Below are positions 27,874 through 35,348 of a stretch of 43,201 nt of DNA, in pieces. Location of the stretch: IMG/VR virus record IMGVR_UViG_3300047560_002016, positions 1 through 43,201 of that record; one strand, written 5' to 3'. This DNA comes from a virus. The number at the start of each line of letters is the position of its first letter. Positions within the stretch are counted from its first letter, which is position 1. The position numbers and the translations under genes were made by a program. The notes beneath the pieces are model-generated. The model did not search any database. It worked only from the letters and a program-made list of their open reading frames with translations, and had not been told where the DNA came from.

Positions 27874-30153
27874 ATGGCAGAAAAAATTGTATCACCTGGT
27901 GTATTTACGAGAGAAAATGACCTTTCTTTCTTACCTCAAGGTATATCACAAATAGGTGCAGCAGTAGTTGGTCCGACAGAAAAAGGGCCTGCATTTCTTC
28001 CAACTTTGATTCAAACTCAAGCAGAATACGAATCAATTTTTGGAACACCTAAAGATTATTATACGGGTTATGCGGTTCAGAATTATTTAAGAGATGCTGG
28101 TGCGGTGACAGTAGTAAGAGTTGCCGGAGTTGATGGATACTCATTGGATAATGCATATGAAATCATTGCATCATCTGGTTCAGTATCACAATCTATTGGA
28201 TTATTAGCACCTGCTAGTAGCACAAATGATGTAGCACCTACTTTTAGAGCTGACACTGCTGGTAAATTCGTAGTATCGGGTTCTGGTTTGAATCCTATTA
28301 GTTCTAGTATTTTTACTGCCGATTCAAATACAATAGATGATATCTTCGGTAAAAATCCGTTCTTCGGAAAAGCATTATATGCTTATACATTCTTCGATAT
28401 CAAAGAAGCTGGTTCTGCGTTAAGTGCAAGTTTTGCAAGCACTTCAAATCTTACATTAAGTTTTGCAGAAGTTGATTCTCAAGATTTTACTAATGGATAT
28501 AGTAATGCTTATACTCCATTTGTATTATCACAAACTTATAGTGGAACAAGATATGAATTATTTAAAGTTCATACATTAGCAGATGGTGAAGGTGAAAACA
28601 AGAGATTTAAAATTCAAATCTCAAATGTTAAATCATCTGATGGAACTAAATACGGAACATTCTCTTTATTAGTTAGAGATTACAATGATACTGATAAGAG
28701 AAAGACTGTATATGAGCAATATAATAACTTAGATTTAGACCCTAACTCTCCTAACTTCATTGCTAGAAGAATTGGTGATAGACAAATTAGTATTGATGCT
28801 ACTGGTAAAATAACTGAAAACGGAAATTACCAAAATAGAAGTAAGTATATCAGAATAGAAGTAGCTGCTGAAGGAACATATCCTTTAACTGCGATTCCAT
28901 TCGGACATAAGGCTTATTCAAACCCAATTGCTGTAACTACGGCTAATACTTATCCAGTTGTTACTTTTACAACTGCATCATTAGATTCATCAGTTTACTC
29001 AAGTGGTATTGATTTTGTTATCAAAAATAACGAAAACTATTTCAAAGCTATTCCTGATAGTACATCAACTGGTGCAAATAAAGTTTTTGCATTAGATAGT
29101 GCAGCTGGGGCAACAAATGAATTTAACTTAGGTATATCATCAGCTGAAACAACTGATTCTGCTGAATTATCTAAAAGAAATTTTGTTATTGGATTCCAAG
29201 GTGGATTCAACGGACAAGACCCAACAATTTCAGTTGAGAAAGGTGCTAATATCACAGGAGATAACACTCAAGGATTTGATTGTTCAACTTCTACTTCAGC
29301 AGGTTCAGTAGCATATGCAAAAGCATTAAATGCTATTTCTAACCCAGATGAATTTGATATTAACTTATTGATTACTCCTGGTATTGTTAGACAATTCCAC
29401 CCTTATGTAACAACTAAAGCTATTGATGTTTGTGAGGCAAGAGAAGATGTATTCTACATCGGAGATTTTGCTGGAGCTGAAGCTACAATTGCTGAAGCAG
29501 TTGAACAGGCATTAGGTGAAGATACAAACTATGCGGGTACTTACTATCCATGGATTAAAACAATTGATGTAAATACTAATAAAGTAATAACAGTTCCACC
29601 TTCAGTATTAATGGCCGGAACATATGCACAAAATGATAGATTAGGAGCTGAATGGTTTGCACCTGCAGGTTTAAATAGAGGTGGTATTAATGGAGCTATT
29701 CAAGTAGTAAATAGATTAACACAATCTGAAAGAGATACATTATACGAAGGAAAGGTAAACCCAATTGCGGCATTCCCTGGACAAGGTATCAGTGCATTTG
29801 GACAGAAAACTTTACAAGATACTGCATCTGCATTAGATAGAATCAATGTAAGAAGATTGTTAATCAACTTAAAGAAGTTTGTTGCATCTACTTCAAGATT
29901 CTTAGTATTCGAACAAAATACTGCAACAACTAGAAGTAAATTCTTAAACACAGTAAACCCTTATTTAGAGAGTGTTCAACAAAGACAAGGTTTATATGCG
30001 TTTAGAGTGGTTATGGACGAAACAAATAATACACCAGATGTAATTGATAGAAACATTTTAGCGGGTTCTATCTTCTTACAACCTGCAAAAACTGCTGAAT
30101 TCATCACAATTGATTTCAACATTTTACCAACAGGTGCTACATTTAATGTATAA
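27874..30153 (+). CDS. gp18: Contractile tail sheath protein, gp18-like
   Basis: Forms the contractile sheath around the tail tube. At 759 residues it is longer than T4 gp18 (659), with the extra length in the variable middle. The N-terminal sheath domain has VSPGVFTRENDLSF...GAAVVGPTEKGPAF and AVQNYLRDAGAVTVVRVAG (about 5-85). The C-terminal domain is well conserved: KTIDVNTNKVITVPPS, MAGTYAQNDRLGAEWFAPAG, NPIAAFPGQG, ALDRINVRRLLINLKKFV, and the end VVMDETNNTPDVIDRN with FNILPTGATF, the strands that link subunits into the sheath mesh. A strong call from several collinear motifs. It is followed directly by the tube gene, as in T4. Confidence 0.93.
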   Translation: MAEKIVSPGVFTRENDLSFLPQGISQIGAAVVGPTEKGPAFLPTLIQTQAEYESIFGTPKDYYTGYAVQNYLRDAGAVTVVRVAGVDGYSLDNAYEIIASSGSVSQSIGLLAPASSTNDVAPTFRADTAGKFVVSGSGLNPISSSIFTADSNTIDDIFGKNPFFGKALYAYTFFDIKEAGSALSASFASTSNLTLSFAEVDSQDFTNGYSNAYTPFVLSQTYSGTRYELFKVHTLADGEGENKRFKIQISNVKSSDGTKYGTFSLLVRDYNDTDKRKTVYEQYNNLDLDPNSPNFIARRIGDRQISIDATGKITENGNYQNRSKYIRIEVAAEGTYPLTAIPFGHKAYSNPIAVTTANTYPVVTFTTASLDSSVYSSGIDFVIKNNENYFKAIPDSTSTGANKVFALDSAAGATNEFNLGISSAETTDSAELSKRNFVIGFQGGFNGQDPTISVEKGANITGDNTQGFDCSTSTSAGSVAYAKALNAISNPDEFDINLLITPGIVRQFHPYVTTKAIDVCEAREDVFYIGDFAGAEATIAEAVEQALGEDTNYAGTYYPWIKTIDVNTNKVITVPPSVLMAGTYAQNDRLGAEWFAPAGLNRGGINGAIQVVNRLTQSERDTLYEGKVNPIAAFPGQGISAFGQKTLQDTASALDRINVRRLLINLKKFVASTSRFLVFEQNTATTRSKFLNTVNPYLESVQQRQGLYAFRVVMDETNNTPDVIDRNILAGSIFLQPAKTAEFITIDFNILPTGATFNV

Positions 30154-30192: not shown

Positions 30193-30684
30193 ATGGCAGA
30201 AGTATTAGAATTTAATGAGATGTTCTATACGAACTTTGAACCAAAGATGAAAAATAGATTCGTCTTTGAAGTAGACGGAATCCCTTCATATTTAGTAAAG
30301 GCTGGTAATAGACCAACATTACAATTTGAAACAGTAGTATTAGACCATATCAACATAAAAAGAAAGTTAAAAGGAAAAGGTGATTGGCAAGATTTGGAAA
30401 TCACTTTATACGACCCAATCGTTCCATCTGGAGCACAGGCTGTAATGGAATGGGTTAGAGCATCTCACGAATCTTTAACCGGTAGAGATGGATACGCAGA
30501 ATTCTATAAGAAAGATGTGGATTTCTATATGTTAGGGCCAGTAGGTGATAAGATTGAACAATGGAAATTAAAAGGAGCATTTATCTCTCAAGCTAACTTC
30601 GGTGACTTGGATTGGTCAAATGCTACGGATCCAGCATCAATCTCCGTAACTCTTACTTACGATTACGCAATATTGGAATTCTAA
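30193..30684 (+). CDS. gp19: Tail tube protein, gp19-like
   Basis: Forms the stacked hexameric rings of the inner tail tube. It is 163 residues, the same length as T4 gp19. Typical segments are FVFEVDGIPSYLVKAGNRP (about 23-41), DHINIKRKLKGKGDWQDLEI (about 52-71), a long helix around MEWVRASHESLTGRDGYAE, and WKLKGAFISQANFGDLDWSN with a final ISVTLTYDYAILEF strand, all matching the T4-type tube family. It follows the sheath gene with its own late-motif copy and is closed by a terminator 20 bases downstream, giving a short monocistronic option suited to an abundant protein. Confidence 0.93.
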   Translation: MAEVLEFNEMFYTNFEPKMKNRFVFEVDGIPSYLVKAGNRPTLQFETVVLDHINIKRKLKGKGDWQDLEITLYDPIVPSGAQAVMEWVRASHESLTGRDGYAEFYKKDVDFYMLGPVGDKIEQWKLKGAFISQANFGDLDWSNATDPASISVTLTYDYAILEF

Positions 30685-30844: not shown

Positions 30845-31132
30845 ATGAATATTAATGAATTAAACTTAACGGAATTAGAATCAAAAACCCTTTCAACTTT
30901 TATTGATTGTTTATATGCTGAACCGGGTTTCTCCGATGTGGATGTAAATGATATTAGTGAATGTACTGGTATTTCTACCAAAACAATTAGAGGAGCTTTA
31001 GGTTCTTTAGTTAAAAAAGGTTTCGTTACCATTAACACAAACGATAGTGGATATGATATCATCGATTTGAATACCAAATATTGGTACTTAGTAAATGAAG
31101 ATTGGGCTGAAGAAGCTAAAATGTATCTTTAA
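30845..31132 (+). CDS. Winged-helix DNA-binding protein
   Basis: A 95-residue protein. Residues about 8-75 fit a winged helix-turn-helix: a first helix (LTELESKTLSTFIDCLYAE), a helix-turn-helix VDVNDISECTGISTKTIRGA (about 33-52) with LGSLVKKGFV as the end of the recognition region, and a wing strand pair (TINTNDSGYDIIDL). This arrangement is as in MarR/ArsR-type regulators or phage-encoded repressor-like proteins. It is isolated from the late genes by a terminator and has its own host-type promoter candidate, so it may be expressed earlier than the virion genes. Its target is unknown. It could control the late switch or a host operon. Confidence 0.65.
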   Translation: MNINELNLTELESKTLSTFIDCLYAEPGFSDVDVNDISECTGISTKTIRGALGSLVKKGFVTINTNDSGYDIIDLNTKYWYLVNEDWAEEAKMYL

Positions 31133-31541: not shown

Positions 31542-32303
31542 ATGCAAGAACAAAAATACGATTTCCCAACGGAAGTTATATCATTACCATCAGAAGGTAA
31601 AGGTTATCCTGAAACTCATCCTTTGGCAAAAGGAACAATTGAGATTAAATATATGACCGCAAAAGAGGAGGAAATATTAGCTTCTCAAAATTTAATCAAA
31701 AAGGGATTGGTATTGGACAAATTATTTGAATCAATTATAGTTGAAAAAGATGTAAATCCAAACGATATCTTAGTTGGTGATAAAAATGCTATTATGTTAG
31801 CTACTAGAATTTTGGCATATGGCCCAGAATATGAAGTAGAAGTGTTTGCATCCGATGATAGTGTTGATAATGTTATAGTTGATTTAGGTAAAGTTAAAAC
31901 CAAAGAAATCAATACGGATTTGTTAAAAAGAACAAATAGATATGATTTCACTACTCCATCTGGCAATAAATTAGTAATAAAGTTATTAACTCATGGAGAT
32001 GAGCAAAAAATTGAAGAAGAGATAAGAGCATTGAAAAAGTTCAATAAAAATGGAGTAAGTGCTGAATTAACTACTAGATATAGATATATTATAGTAGAAG
32101 TGGATGGTAAAAACGATACAAAAAGTATTGTTGATTTCATTAATAACAAATTCATAACAAGAGATACAAGAGCTTTAAGAGAGTTCATTAAGAGTATCCA
32201 ACCTGATATTGTAATGGAATTTGAATATGAAGATCCAGAGACTGGAGAAAAGGAGGTACGCCCGATTCCAATGGGTGTAGGGTTTTTTTACCCTTCCCTC
32301 TAA
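31542..32303 (+). CDS. gp26: gp26-like baseplate hub / tail assembly chaperone (short form)
   Basis: A 253-residue protein of the T4 baseplate protein family (gp26, PF12322-like). Markers: LPSEGKGYPETHPLAKGTIEIKYMTAKEEEIL (about 16-47), LVLDKLFESIIVEKDVNPND and ILVGDKNAIMLATRILAYGPEY (about 59-102), then the second half with FTTPSGNKLVIKLLTHGDE and a C-terminal IPMGVGFFYPS. In T4 these proteins act in hub assembly and are not in the finished virion. It sits upstream of the tape measure gene, the usual place of the G-type tail assembly chaperone. The zero-frame ends at TAA 32301-32303, but a conserved-looking frame continues in +1, so this is probably the short product of a frameshifting gene. 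Confidence 0.75.
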   Translation: MQEQKYDFPTEVISLPSEGKGYPETHPLAKGTIEIKYMTAKEEEILASQNLIKKGLVLDKLFESIIVEKDVNPNDILVGDKNAIMLATRILAYGPEYEVEVFASDDSVDNVIVDLGKVKTKEINTDLLKRTNRYDFTTPSGNKLVIKLLTHGDEQKIEEEIRALKKFNKNGVSAELTTRYRYIIVEVDGKNDTKSIVDFINNKFITRDTRALREFIKSIQPDIVMEFEYEDPETGEKEVRPIPMGVGFFYPSL

Positions 32304-32511
32304 CTATTCGGTAGTATTACATAGCCAAATATTTGAGTTGTGTTACTACGGAAACGGATTCATTCAATCAGATGTCTATAATTTGCCAGTGCACCTTAGA
32401 AATTTTTACTATAAGCAATTATTAGATACTAAGAAAAAGGAAAATGAATCCACCAAAGCAATTAAACAAAATAGTCCGAAATCCCCATCTAAAGTGAGAG
32501 TTAATAAATAA
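32281..32511 (+). CDS. +1-frame extension of the gp26-like gene (gp51-like, no ATG)
   Basis: An open +1 frame of 76 codons between TAG (32278-32280) and TAA (32509-32511). It has no ATG; the only usual alternative start, TTG at 32338, would cut off the start of the motif. The product contains SQIFELCYYGNGFIQSDVYN followed by LPVHLRNFYYKQLLDTKKKE, which resembles the small gp51-like/chaperone extension that follows gp26-like proteins in T4-like phages. A +1 slip at CTC-TAA-C (32298-32304, CTC to TCT) would join ...FFYPSL to NYSVVL. The RF2 gene uses a comparable site, CTT-TGA-C. The transcript's hairpin terminator lies at the end of this frame, not of the short form. Confidence 0.65.
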   Translation, partial: GFFTLPSNYSVVLHSQIFELCYYGNGFIQSDVYNLPVHLRNFYYKQLLDTKKKENESTKAIKQNSPKSPSKVRVNK

Positions 32512-32523
32512 CTCTCATTTTAG
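32494..32523 (+). terminator. Hairpin terminator at the end of the +1 frame
   Basis: A stem of 8 perfect pairs (GAGAGTTA 32496-32503 with TAACTCTC 32509-32516), extendable by an A-T and a G-T pair, with loop ATAAA, is followed by ATTTTAGTTT. The T-tract is interrupted, so it is weaker than the others. It overlaps the +1-frame stop codon. Confidence 0.6.
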
Positions 32524-32561: not shown

Positions 32562-32819
32562 ATGAAAATAAAAGCAAGTAAAGAAGAACAAATTAGATTG
32601 AAGGAAGTTCTAACAAAGCATAAAGGTATCAATGAAGGTATTGTAAAATGGTTGTTCAATAAATTACTTCTTAATAAGATTAAAGGAGATTCTACCCTTA
32701 TGGGTAAATTAAATGCAGCTGATAAAGCTATGGATACTTTAAAAGACACAATTGCAGATAGAGAATCTAAAGGATTATATGTTGCACCTGAACTTAAAGC
32801 AATGGTTGGTTTAAAATAA
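32562..32819 (+). CDS. Small helical hypothetical protein before the tape measure
   Basis: An 85-residue, Lys-rich, probably all-helical protein (EEQIRLKEVLTKHKGINEGI, then VKWLFNKLLLNKIKGDSTLM, then DKAMDTLKDTIADRES). No known motif is visible. It is encoded 12 bp upstream of the tape measure gene, after the tail-assembly chaperone. In many phages small proteins in this spot belong to tail assembly, so a chaperone role is a guess from position only. Confidence 0.55.
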   Translation: MKIKASKEEQIRLKEVLTKHKGINEGIVKWLFNKLLLNKIKGDSTLMGKLNAADKAMDTLKDTIADRESKGLYVAPELKAMVGLK

Positions 32820-32831
32820 TTTTTAGAATAA

Positions 32832-35348
32832 ATGGCAGGTCATAAATCACATCACTCCGCTCCACCAAAAGAAGAAACAAAGGAATATGAAGACTTATTA
32901 AAAATGAGTTCTTCGGTGATTACTGGTATCCAAAAGCAAATGCAAAACTGGGCCGATACCACTAAACATCTTGGTAAAAATCAGAGAGAATATGTTGAAA
33001 AATTAAAAGCTGGAGTAGGAGAATTAACTGATCAGGAATCAATTAATAAACATATCAATAAATTAAATGATGTAAGAAGCCAATTATTAAAAAATCAAAA
33101 AGTGCACCAATCTTCTTTCAATCAAATTGGTATTAGTAATTTAAAGATAATCACAGAAGCATTACAACTTGAATTTAAAAGACAAGTAGCAATTGAAGGT
33201 GTACAAAATGCATCAGAACATTTGGCGAGTACACTCAATGATACTTTTGATGGTATTGAAAGTGGATTACATCATATTCCATTAATCGGTGGTATTCTTA
33301 GTAGTATTGCTAAAGGGCCAGTTGAAAAACTTAAGGAATCGGTAACTTCTGCAGCCGGAGCATTTACTAAAAAATTCGGTGAATCATTGAAAGCGGGTGC
33401 GGGTTCGTTTAATTCATTAAAAGCAGCCGGTTCGGAAGCATTTAGTGGTATTATGGCTGCAATGAATCCAGTTACTTTAGCAATAATAGGAATTGGGGCG
33501 GCTATAACAATGGCATTTTTAAGATTCCATGAATTAGAAACTGCAGCCGATGATTTCAAAGAACAAACCGGATTGGCAGTTGCTGATGCTCATGAATTGG
33601 AACATTCTATTCAAATGGTTTCAAATAAAATGGGTTATTTGGGAGCAAGTGCAGCGGATGTGAGTAAAGCTATGAGTGATTTCACAAAGGAATTTGATAA
33701 TATGACAATTCCAATGGAAAGTACAGTTGAATCAATGGTTATGTTAAATAAAAACTTTGGGATAGCAACTGATACTGCATCTGAAGTGAACAAAATCATG
33801 CAAAATATGGCTGGGCTATCGGAAACCCAGGCACAATATTTAACAAATTCGGTTGTTGAAATGTCTAATTTGGCAGGAGTAGCACCTCAATCCGTAATGA
33901 AAGATATTTCAGATAGTGCTGAAGAATCATATAAGTATTTTAAAGGTGATGCAAAAGAATTAGCTAAAGCAGCAGTTCAGGCAGCTAAGATGGGAACATC
34001 TCTAACTAATATAATGAAAACATCTGAAAAACTTTTAGATTTTGAACAAAGTGTAACGGATGAATTAGAGTTTTCTGCATTAGCCGGAAAGGATATCAAT
34101 TTAGGAAAAGCTAGAGAATTAGCATTTTTGGGTGACGAAATAGGAATGCAAAAAGAGTTGGGTAATCAACTTGCTAAGATAGGTGATATAAATTCATTAT
34201 CTGTCTATGAGAAACAAAAGTTGATGGATTTAACTGGGCAAGATTTAAAAACATTAACTAATACTCAAAGAATTGCTTCTAAGTTTGGAGATTTGGATAA
34301 AGAAAGATTAGCAGCGGCAAATGCTTTATTAGGTAAAGGTTTAGATATAAAAGATATAGGAGAATCCGAATTAGAAGATCAGGCAAATAGATTGAAGAAG
34401 CAAGAGCAGATGCAAGATATGATGGATCAAATTGGAAATAGAATGAGCCAAATGGGAACTGCTTTTATGGATATGTTTGCACCAATAGGTGGAGTAATAA
34501 TCAAAACTTTAATGTTTGCAGTGAAAGCTATTTCCGGTATATTGATACCGGCATTTCAAATGTTAGGAAAGGCTATTTACATTGCTACTTTACCAATTCA
34601 ATCATTATTACATGGGTTTGAAGTAGCTATTGAATATATAAAGAAATATATTGATTATGTAGCTGCAGCAGGAGTTGGAATGGCATTAGTAGTAGCTTGG
34701 CAAGAAAAATCAAATATACAAAGTGCATTGAGTAATGGTTATGAAGCTGTAAAGGCTGCATTTCAAAAAGATGGATTGATATATAATATTGCAACGGAGG
34801 CTTCTAAAAAGGCACAGGCTGCATGGGATTTATTAAGTGCTGGATATGCAGCAACAAAAGCGGCTATTGAAGAAAAAGGTTTATTGAGAGGAATAGCTGC
34901 AATGGCAATAAAGGCGTTTAACTCATTAGCAGATATTCCAGTTGTAGGTTGGGCATTAGGAGCAGCGGCGGCAGTTGGTGCATATGCATTGGGTAAATCA
35001 TATATGTCAAAAGCGGGAGACGTTTATTCACCGGCTGATGGTAAAACACAAATATCTACTAAAGAAGGTGGATTGTTTGAATTATCTAAAAATGATGATG
35101 TATTAGCAGGTCCTGGTTTAGGTGAACAAATGAAAAACCAAAATGCTCAAAGTGGAATAGTTGCAACTAATGGAGAAGGTGGTGGTGGAAATAGTGCAAT
35201 AGCTGGATTAGTGAATTCTATGATTAGTGAGATTCAAGGATTAAGAACTGATTTAACATCAGGAAAGGTTGCAGTTTATATGGATGGTCAGCTTGTAACT
35301 TCTAAAGTTGCAGGTGTAGCAGCAAATAACCCAGTAACAGGAAGATAA
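32832..35348 (+). CDS. Tail tape measure protein
   Basis: An 838-residue protein that probably sets tail length and sits inside the tube; by the rule of about 0.15 nm per residue it would correspond to a tail near 125 nm. The N-terminal half is helical and coiled-coil-rich. Hydrophobic segments are typical: about 214-231 (VTLAIIGIGAAITMAFLR), about 558-590 (GVIIKTLMFAVKAISGILI), about 615-630, and about 715-740 (VVGWALGAAAAVGAYALG). A Met-rich amphipathic region (EQMQDMMDQIGNRMSQMG) precedes the second one. The C-terminal GDVYSPADGKTQISTKEGGL followed by FELSKNDDVLAGPG is a pattern common at the end of phage tape measure proteins. It is followed by baseplate genes with TAATG overlap. Confidence 0.8.
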   Translation: MAGHKSHHSAPPKEETKEYEDLLKMSSSVITGIQKQMQNWADTTKHLGKNQREYVEKLKAGVGELTDQESINKHINKLNDVRSQLLKNQKVHQSSFNQIGISNLKIITEALQLEFKRQVAIEGVQNASEHLASTLNDTFDGIESGLHHIPLIGGILSSIAKGPVEKLKESVTSAAGAFTKKFGESLKAGAGSFNSLKAAGSEAFSGIMAAMNPVTLAIIGIGAAITMAFLRFHELETAADDFKEQTGLAVADAHELEHSIQMVSNKMGYLGASAADVSKAMSDFTKEFDNMTIPMESTVESMVMLNKNFGIATDTASEVNKIMQNMAGLSETQAQYLTNSVVEMSNLAGVAPQSVMKDISDSAEESYKYFKGDAKELAKAAVQAAKMGTSLTNIMKTSEKLLDFEQSVTDELEFSALAGKDINLGKARELAFLGDEIGMQKELGNQLAKIGDINSLSVYEKQKLMDLTGQDLKTLTNTQRIASKFGDLDKERLAAANALLGKGLDIKDIGESELEDQANRLKKQEQMQDMMDQIGNRMSQMGTAFMDMFAPIGGVIIKTLMFAVKAISGILIPAFQMLGKAIYIATLPIQSLLHGFEVAIEYIKKYIDYVAAAGVGMALVVAWQEKSNIQSALSNGYEAVKAAFQKDGLIYNIATEASKKAQAAWDLLSAGYAATKAAIEEKGLLRGIAAMAIKAFNSLADIPVVGWALGAAAAVGAYALGKSYMSKAGDVYSPADGKTQISTKEGGLFELSKNDDVLAGPGLGEQMKNQNAQSGIVATNGEGGGGNSAIAGLVNSMISEIQGLRTDLTSGKVAVYMDGQLVTSKVAGVAANNPVTGR

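Follow-up and report, generated by a model that had tools for sequence, protein, structure and literature searches.

The gp26-like tail assembly chaperone gene of the window very probably contains a programmed +1 frameshift of the lambda G/GT type, in which a slip on YUU_U would give a short and a long form of the chaperone. The window is the whole stretch of viral DNA analysed here, 43,201 nucleotides long (positions 1 to 43,201 of IMG/VR record IMGVR_UViG_3300047560_002016). The production of both forms via a +1 frameshift is well supported by the comparative analysis of related sequences. The original prediction had proposed a shift of this kind and sign, and the +1 frame is retained in nearly all relatives. 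It had placed the slip at CTC-TAA-C, and this placement is not upheld.

The short form (TAC-N, gpG-like; 253 aa) is encoded at 31542..32303 on the plus strand, as are all other features described below. The gene ends in GGT GTA GGG TTT TTT TAC CCT TCC CTC TAA, with the zero-frame stop of the short form at 32301..32303. The zero-frame product ends in GVGFFYPSL*, which retains the FFYPS end described originally. The +1 frame is closed on its upstream side by TAG at 32278-32280 and is open until TAA at 32509-32511. The +1-frame extension (TAC-C, gpT-like; 32290..32511) comprises 73 codons and a stop, and the fused product is 322 aa long. No ATG or GTG is present in the +1 frame of the window between 32278 and 32511, and the earliest TTG, at 32338, is within the conserved domain.

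The window gp26-like protein matches PHROG 150 ('baseplate hub', E 1.2e-7), as do 16 of its 17 homologues. Eight of the 17 homologues also match PF12322, which is not matched by the window protein itself. T4 gp26 and T4 gp51 both match PHROG 150 and PF12322, and T4 gp51 has an additional C-terminal part that is absent from T4 gp26. On the basis of these profile matches, the window gene is assigned to the T4 gp26/gp51 tail assembly chaperone family. A sequence search of the PDB gives no match.

The junction was read in 110 loci, which are 25 + 80 IMG/VR relatives and the phages immuto, Mel-JY01, LR756508, GXN1 and LR756511. One locus (L038) ends before the extension, leaving 109 assessable loci, and another (L056) is cut off within it. 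Of the 109, 108 carry the extension in +1 and one (L031) carries it in -1. Bacillus phage SP-15, LIS04 and 14/14 readable genome-contig loci at 33-65% identity likewise carry it in +1; two of these contig loci (L224 and L225) duplicate each other. Across 158 pairs, the dN/dS of the +1 extension is about 0.12 and changes at the three +1 codon positions number 1149/711/2564. Site counts are based on 69 representatives with identity <=85%; among the 68 complete ones, the extension is 64-94 codons long. The homologue in Alishewanella phage Slickus01 (L122:2387-3208) does not have the FF run and is followed by a short +1 frame.

The gene order around the junction is that of a G/GT-type locus, with the chaperone gene (31542) between the tail tube gene and the likely tape measure gene. 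The tail sheath protein is encoded at 27874..30153 (PHROG 23, E 1.6e-74) and the gp19-like tail tube protein at 30193..30684 (PF06841, E 5.9e-7; PHROG 4542, E 2.6e-28). The likely tape measure protein (838 aa; 32832..35348) has no convincing match of its own in family profile searches and is named for its position, since the gene in the equivalent place is annotated as tape measure in immuto, SP-15 and LIS04. The same order is found in these three phages, in agreement with the position just upstream of the tape measure gene that was cited originally for such genes in tailed phages. The extension is followed by a small ORF of 85 aa (32562-32819), ahead of the likely tape measure gene; this ORF has no family match, and a similar ORF is present in close relatives. 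Between the tail tube and chaperone genes, 30845-31132 encodes a small winged-helix-like protein (TrmB-type match). A terminator-like hairpin is predicted over the +1 stop (32489..32523), where one had been noted originally, and is conserved across 67 representatives (mean z -4.0, compared with -0.6 for a control stretch).

The proposed slip site is TTT-TTT-T (32283..32289), at which the P-site codon 32286-32288 would re-pair at 32287-32289. Among the 69 representatives, 67 have G or C immediately before the run, 2 have A and none has T; the window has G. The first codon of the run is TTT in 67 and TTC in 2, and the second is TTT in 65, CTT in 3 and CTA in 1. The codon after the run, which would occupy the A site, is TAC in 42, TGG in 22, TAT in 3 and another codon in 2, and the codon that follows is CCT in 68 and CCC in 1. 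In these same genes, TTC makes up 27% of Phe codons, TAT 80% of Tyr codons and CCT 29% of Pro codons. TTC is never the second run codon (0/65), with P about 2e-9 if the representatives are treated as independent, which is overstated given their kinship. The absence of T before the run has a log10 P of about -36 under the same assumption, and is overstated for the same reason. Elsewhere in these genes, in-frame TTT TTT T is found 0 times in 16,267 other codons. This distribution demonstrates nucleotide-level selection on TTT-TTT-T.

The position of the slip is bounded on both sides. The +1 frame of 23/69 representatives has a stop 14 bases upstream of CCT, and Mel-JY01 reaches its zero-frame stop at the second codon past CCT, which leaves only a few codons where the slip can occur. 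Among these, TTT_T and CTT_T allow the best +1 re-pairing. UUU_U is present in the 65 of 69 representatives with TTT as the second run codon, less one (L030, TTC TTT CGT), and CUU_U in 3/69. Flavobacterium phage immuto_2-6A carries CUU_U. YUU_U is proposed because re-pairing and conservation agree, and it is the likely slip site. In LIS04 (TTT TTT A) and in L029 (TTT CTA TTC), the slip would have to fall on the first TTT. Sites of +1 shifting more often present a stop codon than a sense codon in the A site, which counts against a slip at YUU_U.

The CTC-TAA-C sequence at the zero-frame stop (32298-32304) is limited to the window and a single close relative. In the other loci, the last sense codon of the zero frame is ATC, ACC, AAC, GAC, GAG, AGC, AAG, CTA, GTA or another, and the stop itself is 2 to 9 codons after CCT. 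As the pre-stop codon varies freely, CTC-TAA-C is not the signal. The conserved site is 12-15 bases upstream and is either TTT-TTT-T or, in some relatives, TTT-CTT-T. The likeness to RF2 drawn in the original prediction is correct for the kind of site and incorrect for its place, since it applies to the upstream YUU_U.

A sequencing error or a decayed gene is effectively excluded. Nothing beyond the frame break itself points to either, and the identical break occurs in >120 contigs and isolate genomes, and the sequence is under purifying selection both before and after it. The T7 run is identical in many independent assemblies, consistent with the original view that it is no homopolymer error. 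It is extremely improbable that the extension is a separate gene with a start inside the +1 frame. An in-frame ATG, GTG or TTG precedes the conserved LH motif in 39/69 representatives; Mel-JY01 is annotated with its own gene here, and separate genes are likewise annotated for cyanophage gp51 and KVP40.0327. Against this, ATG is present before the motif in only 7/69, start positions are not conserved, and the window has no candidate before TTG 32338. The conserved FFxL..N-Y also begins upstream of any shared start. The extension overlaps the 3' end of the gene in another frame and has no start of its own, as in G/GT-type genes. The sequence comparisons establish that the +1 frame codes for protein, is conserved and continues the gene with no start codon in between.

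RNA polymerase slippage on the T7 run, giving mRNAs one U short, is very unlikely, though marginally less so than a separate gene. A run of seven T is present in most representatives, but seven is short for efficient RNA polymerase slippage, and the +1 extension is kept where the run is interrupted, as TTTCTTT (L002, L021-L027, L112), TTCTTTT (L105) or TTTCTAT (L029). A +1 slip on the proline codon CCT (to CTN), with another role for the T run, is the strongest of the alternatives and is still improbable. Slips of this type on CCC_U are known from Listeria phage PSA (PMC5009743), and CCT, followed by NCC, is present in the representatives far more often than its usage in these genes. However, TTT-TTT is kept and CCT is absent in SP-15 (TTT TTT CAC GCC) and LIS04 (TTT TTT AGT ACC), and the proline codon is therefore not the common factor. 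The constraint on CCTNCC is explained by Leu-Pro coding in the +1 frame after an upstream slip. A CCT slip also leaves unexplained the lack of TTC, the preference for TAC over TAT (42 to 3) and the lack of T before the run.

A GGAGG element (32252..32256) lies 26 bases before the T run and is conserved at synonymous positions. Its two wobble positions are G in 62/69 and 64/69 representatives, and the codon GAG is present in 64/69. GGAGG is also found in most of the more distant loci, and its spacing to the run is 23-29 bases in most +1 phages. Only 5/29 window genes have a Shine-Dalgarno-like start. Several related contigs are binned with Bacteroidota, binning being weak evidence of host. Pairing of GGAGG with CCTNCC was considered and rejected, as GGAGG is unchanged where CCTNCC becomes CCTAGC or CCTGAC and there is no covariation.

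A 5' stem-loop of 8 pairs is predicted at 32257..32279, ending 3 bases before the T run. A small hairpin at wobble positions -25/-16 is weak (paired in 39/69 representatives, shuffle p 0.025). The fold around the site has a mean Z of -2.35 against synonymous randomisation and is not clearly better than dinucleotide shuffles (Z -1.0, compared with -1.06 for a control stretch). The predicted folding around GGAGG and the site is at most suggestive. An Rfam search returns nothing relevant. One tentative reading is a +1 signal of new layout, made up of YUU_U and a sense A-site codon, enhanced by GGAGG and perhaps by a 5' stem-loop, in phages whose genes for the most part lack Shine-Dalgarno starts. 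On this reading, the gene would also have switched its direction of shifting over time, together with a matching change of the base before the run.

In the proposed mechanism on YUU_U, most ribosomes would terminate at the TAA at 32301, which yields the short form. In a minority, peptidyl-tRNA-Phe would be on the second UUU with UAC in the A site. It would slip one base forward and re-pair on the overlapping UUU, ACC would be read next, and translation would continue for 73 codons. The long form of 322 aa would have the junction GVGFF-TLPSNYS. The lambda gpG/gpGT pair suggests roles for the two products, with the short form coating the tape measure protein and the extension recruiting tube subunits; neither product is expected to stay in the virion. 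Expression of the two forms, the nature of the event as a ribosomal slip on UUU_U, how often it happens and what the products do in tail assembly are all inferred.

The +1 extensions may be linked to the C-terminus of T4 gp51 through intermediates. Compared directly, their profile matches that C-terminus (PHROG 634) only weakly (2.6%). In profile comparisons, the +1 extensions match the extension set of jumbo phages, SP-15 and LIS04 at 96.6% (this set includes two +1 phages) and the cyanophage/KVP40 extension set at 78% (E 1.8e-5). The cyanophage/KVP40 set in turn matches the T4 gp51 C-terminus at 97.3% (E 1.8e-11).

Some relatives shift in the opposite direction. KVP40, cyanophage Bellamy, Atu_ph07, Vibrio 2.275, PA5oct, PBECO4, XacN1 and RAS14 have NNT TTT TTY and a -1 extension. 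In this group, T precedes the run and the -1 extension is present in 93/93 loci read, most of which are close Bellamy relatives; the canonical -1 heptamer T_TTT_TTY with an open -1 frame is found in these 93 loci. It is not found in the 69 +1 representatives, which have no conserved -1 extension. LR756511 (L031:3001-3834) has its -1 extension at GGT TTT TTC; its N-terminal part is near those of the +1 phages SP-15 and GXN1, with an uncertain position on a long branch.

A tree built from the N-terminal part recovers the main +1 clade with support of 99/96; its deep branches are long and partly unresolved. The -1 phages fall in at least two groups of the tree, and the sign has therefore changed at least once. 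Within the -1 phages, T4 gp26 branches next to T4 gp51 as its sister group, a placement that fits a gene duplication. Separate gp51 or hub assembly catalyst genes are annotated in Bellamy, KVP40 and P-SSM7 (L115, L116, L209). These genes are better read as putative -1 frameshift extensions of gp26 at T_TTT_TTC, and the relatives of these genes do not retain the start codons. In many phage annotations, small genes named 'gp51' or 'hypothetical' are probably the second half of the chaperone.

In phage chaperones the frame mostly shifts by -1, and +1 shifts in bacteria typically depend on a stop codon or a rare codon. Here, contractile-tail phages of a large group retain a +1 shift on UUU_U/CUU_U with a sense codon in the A site. 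The homologous gene has three solutions to one stoichiometry problem, namely a +1 shift, a -1 shift at the same spot and two genes (T4), which makes it a good system in which to ask what sets the direction of the shift. Vladimirov, Gautam and Davidson (2022, Virology 566:9-15) reportedly described frameshifting in several T4-like groups, with genes 26 and 51 separate in T4. A passage of PMC12846349 describes poly-T -1 signals in T4-like TAC-N genes, citing Vladimirov et al. 2022. T4-like phages with such chaperones, some of them using a -1 frameshift, are already published. In the open literature, no description of the +1 group was found, and judged by those papers the +1 lineage is a new variation on the T4-like chaperone frameshift.

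T4 gp26 (TAC-N) and gp51 (TAC-NC) share their family (PHROG 150, PF12322) with the window gene, as well as the arrangement of a short form and a long form with a C-terminal domain. The window lineage shifts +1 instead of -1, at UUU_U/CUU_U. G-T frameshifting is described as conserved 'except T4' (PMC5009743). In lambda, a frameshift at low level close to the 3' end of the gene extends gpG by a C-terminal domain to give gpGT, and the gene is upstream of the tape measure gene (PMC5009743). The window gene shares the place before the tape measure gene and the added C-terminal domain; the lambda shift is -1 and that of the window +1, and the comparison concerns gene place and layout. The archaeal myovirus HSTV-2 is a likely +1 case (PMC5009743). 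Listeria phage PSA likewise uses +1 shifts in structural genes, but slips on proline CCC in its capsid and tail shaft genes. The natural shift sites of RF2 (prfB) are UUU_U and CUU_U, with re-pairing on UUU (PMC5009743), and a P-site CUU or UUU followed by U is common to RF2 and the window family. RF2 has a stop codon in the A site, unlike the UAC, UGG or UAU of the window family. In RF2 a Shine-Dalgarno sequence lies 3 bases upstream of the P codon, whereas only 24/69 of the +1 representatives have GGG there and their GGAGG is far upstream.
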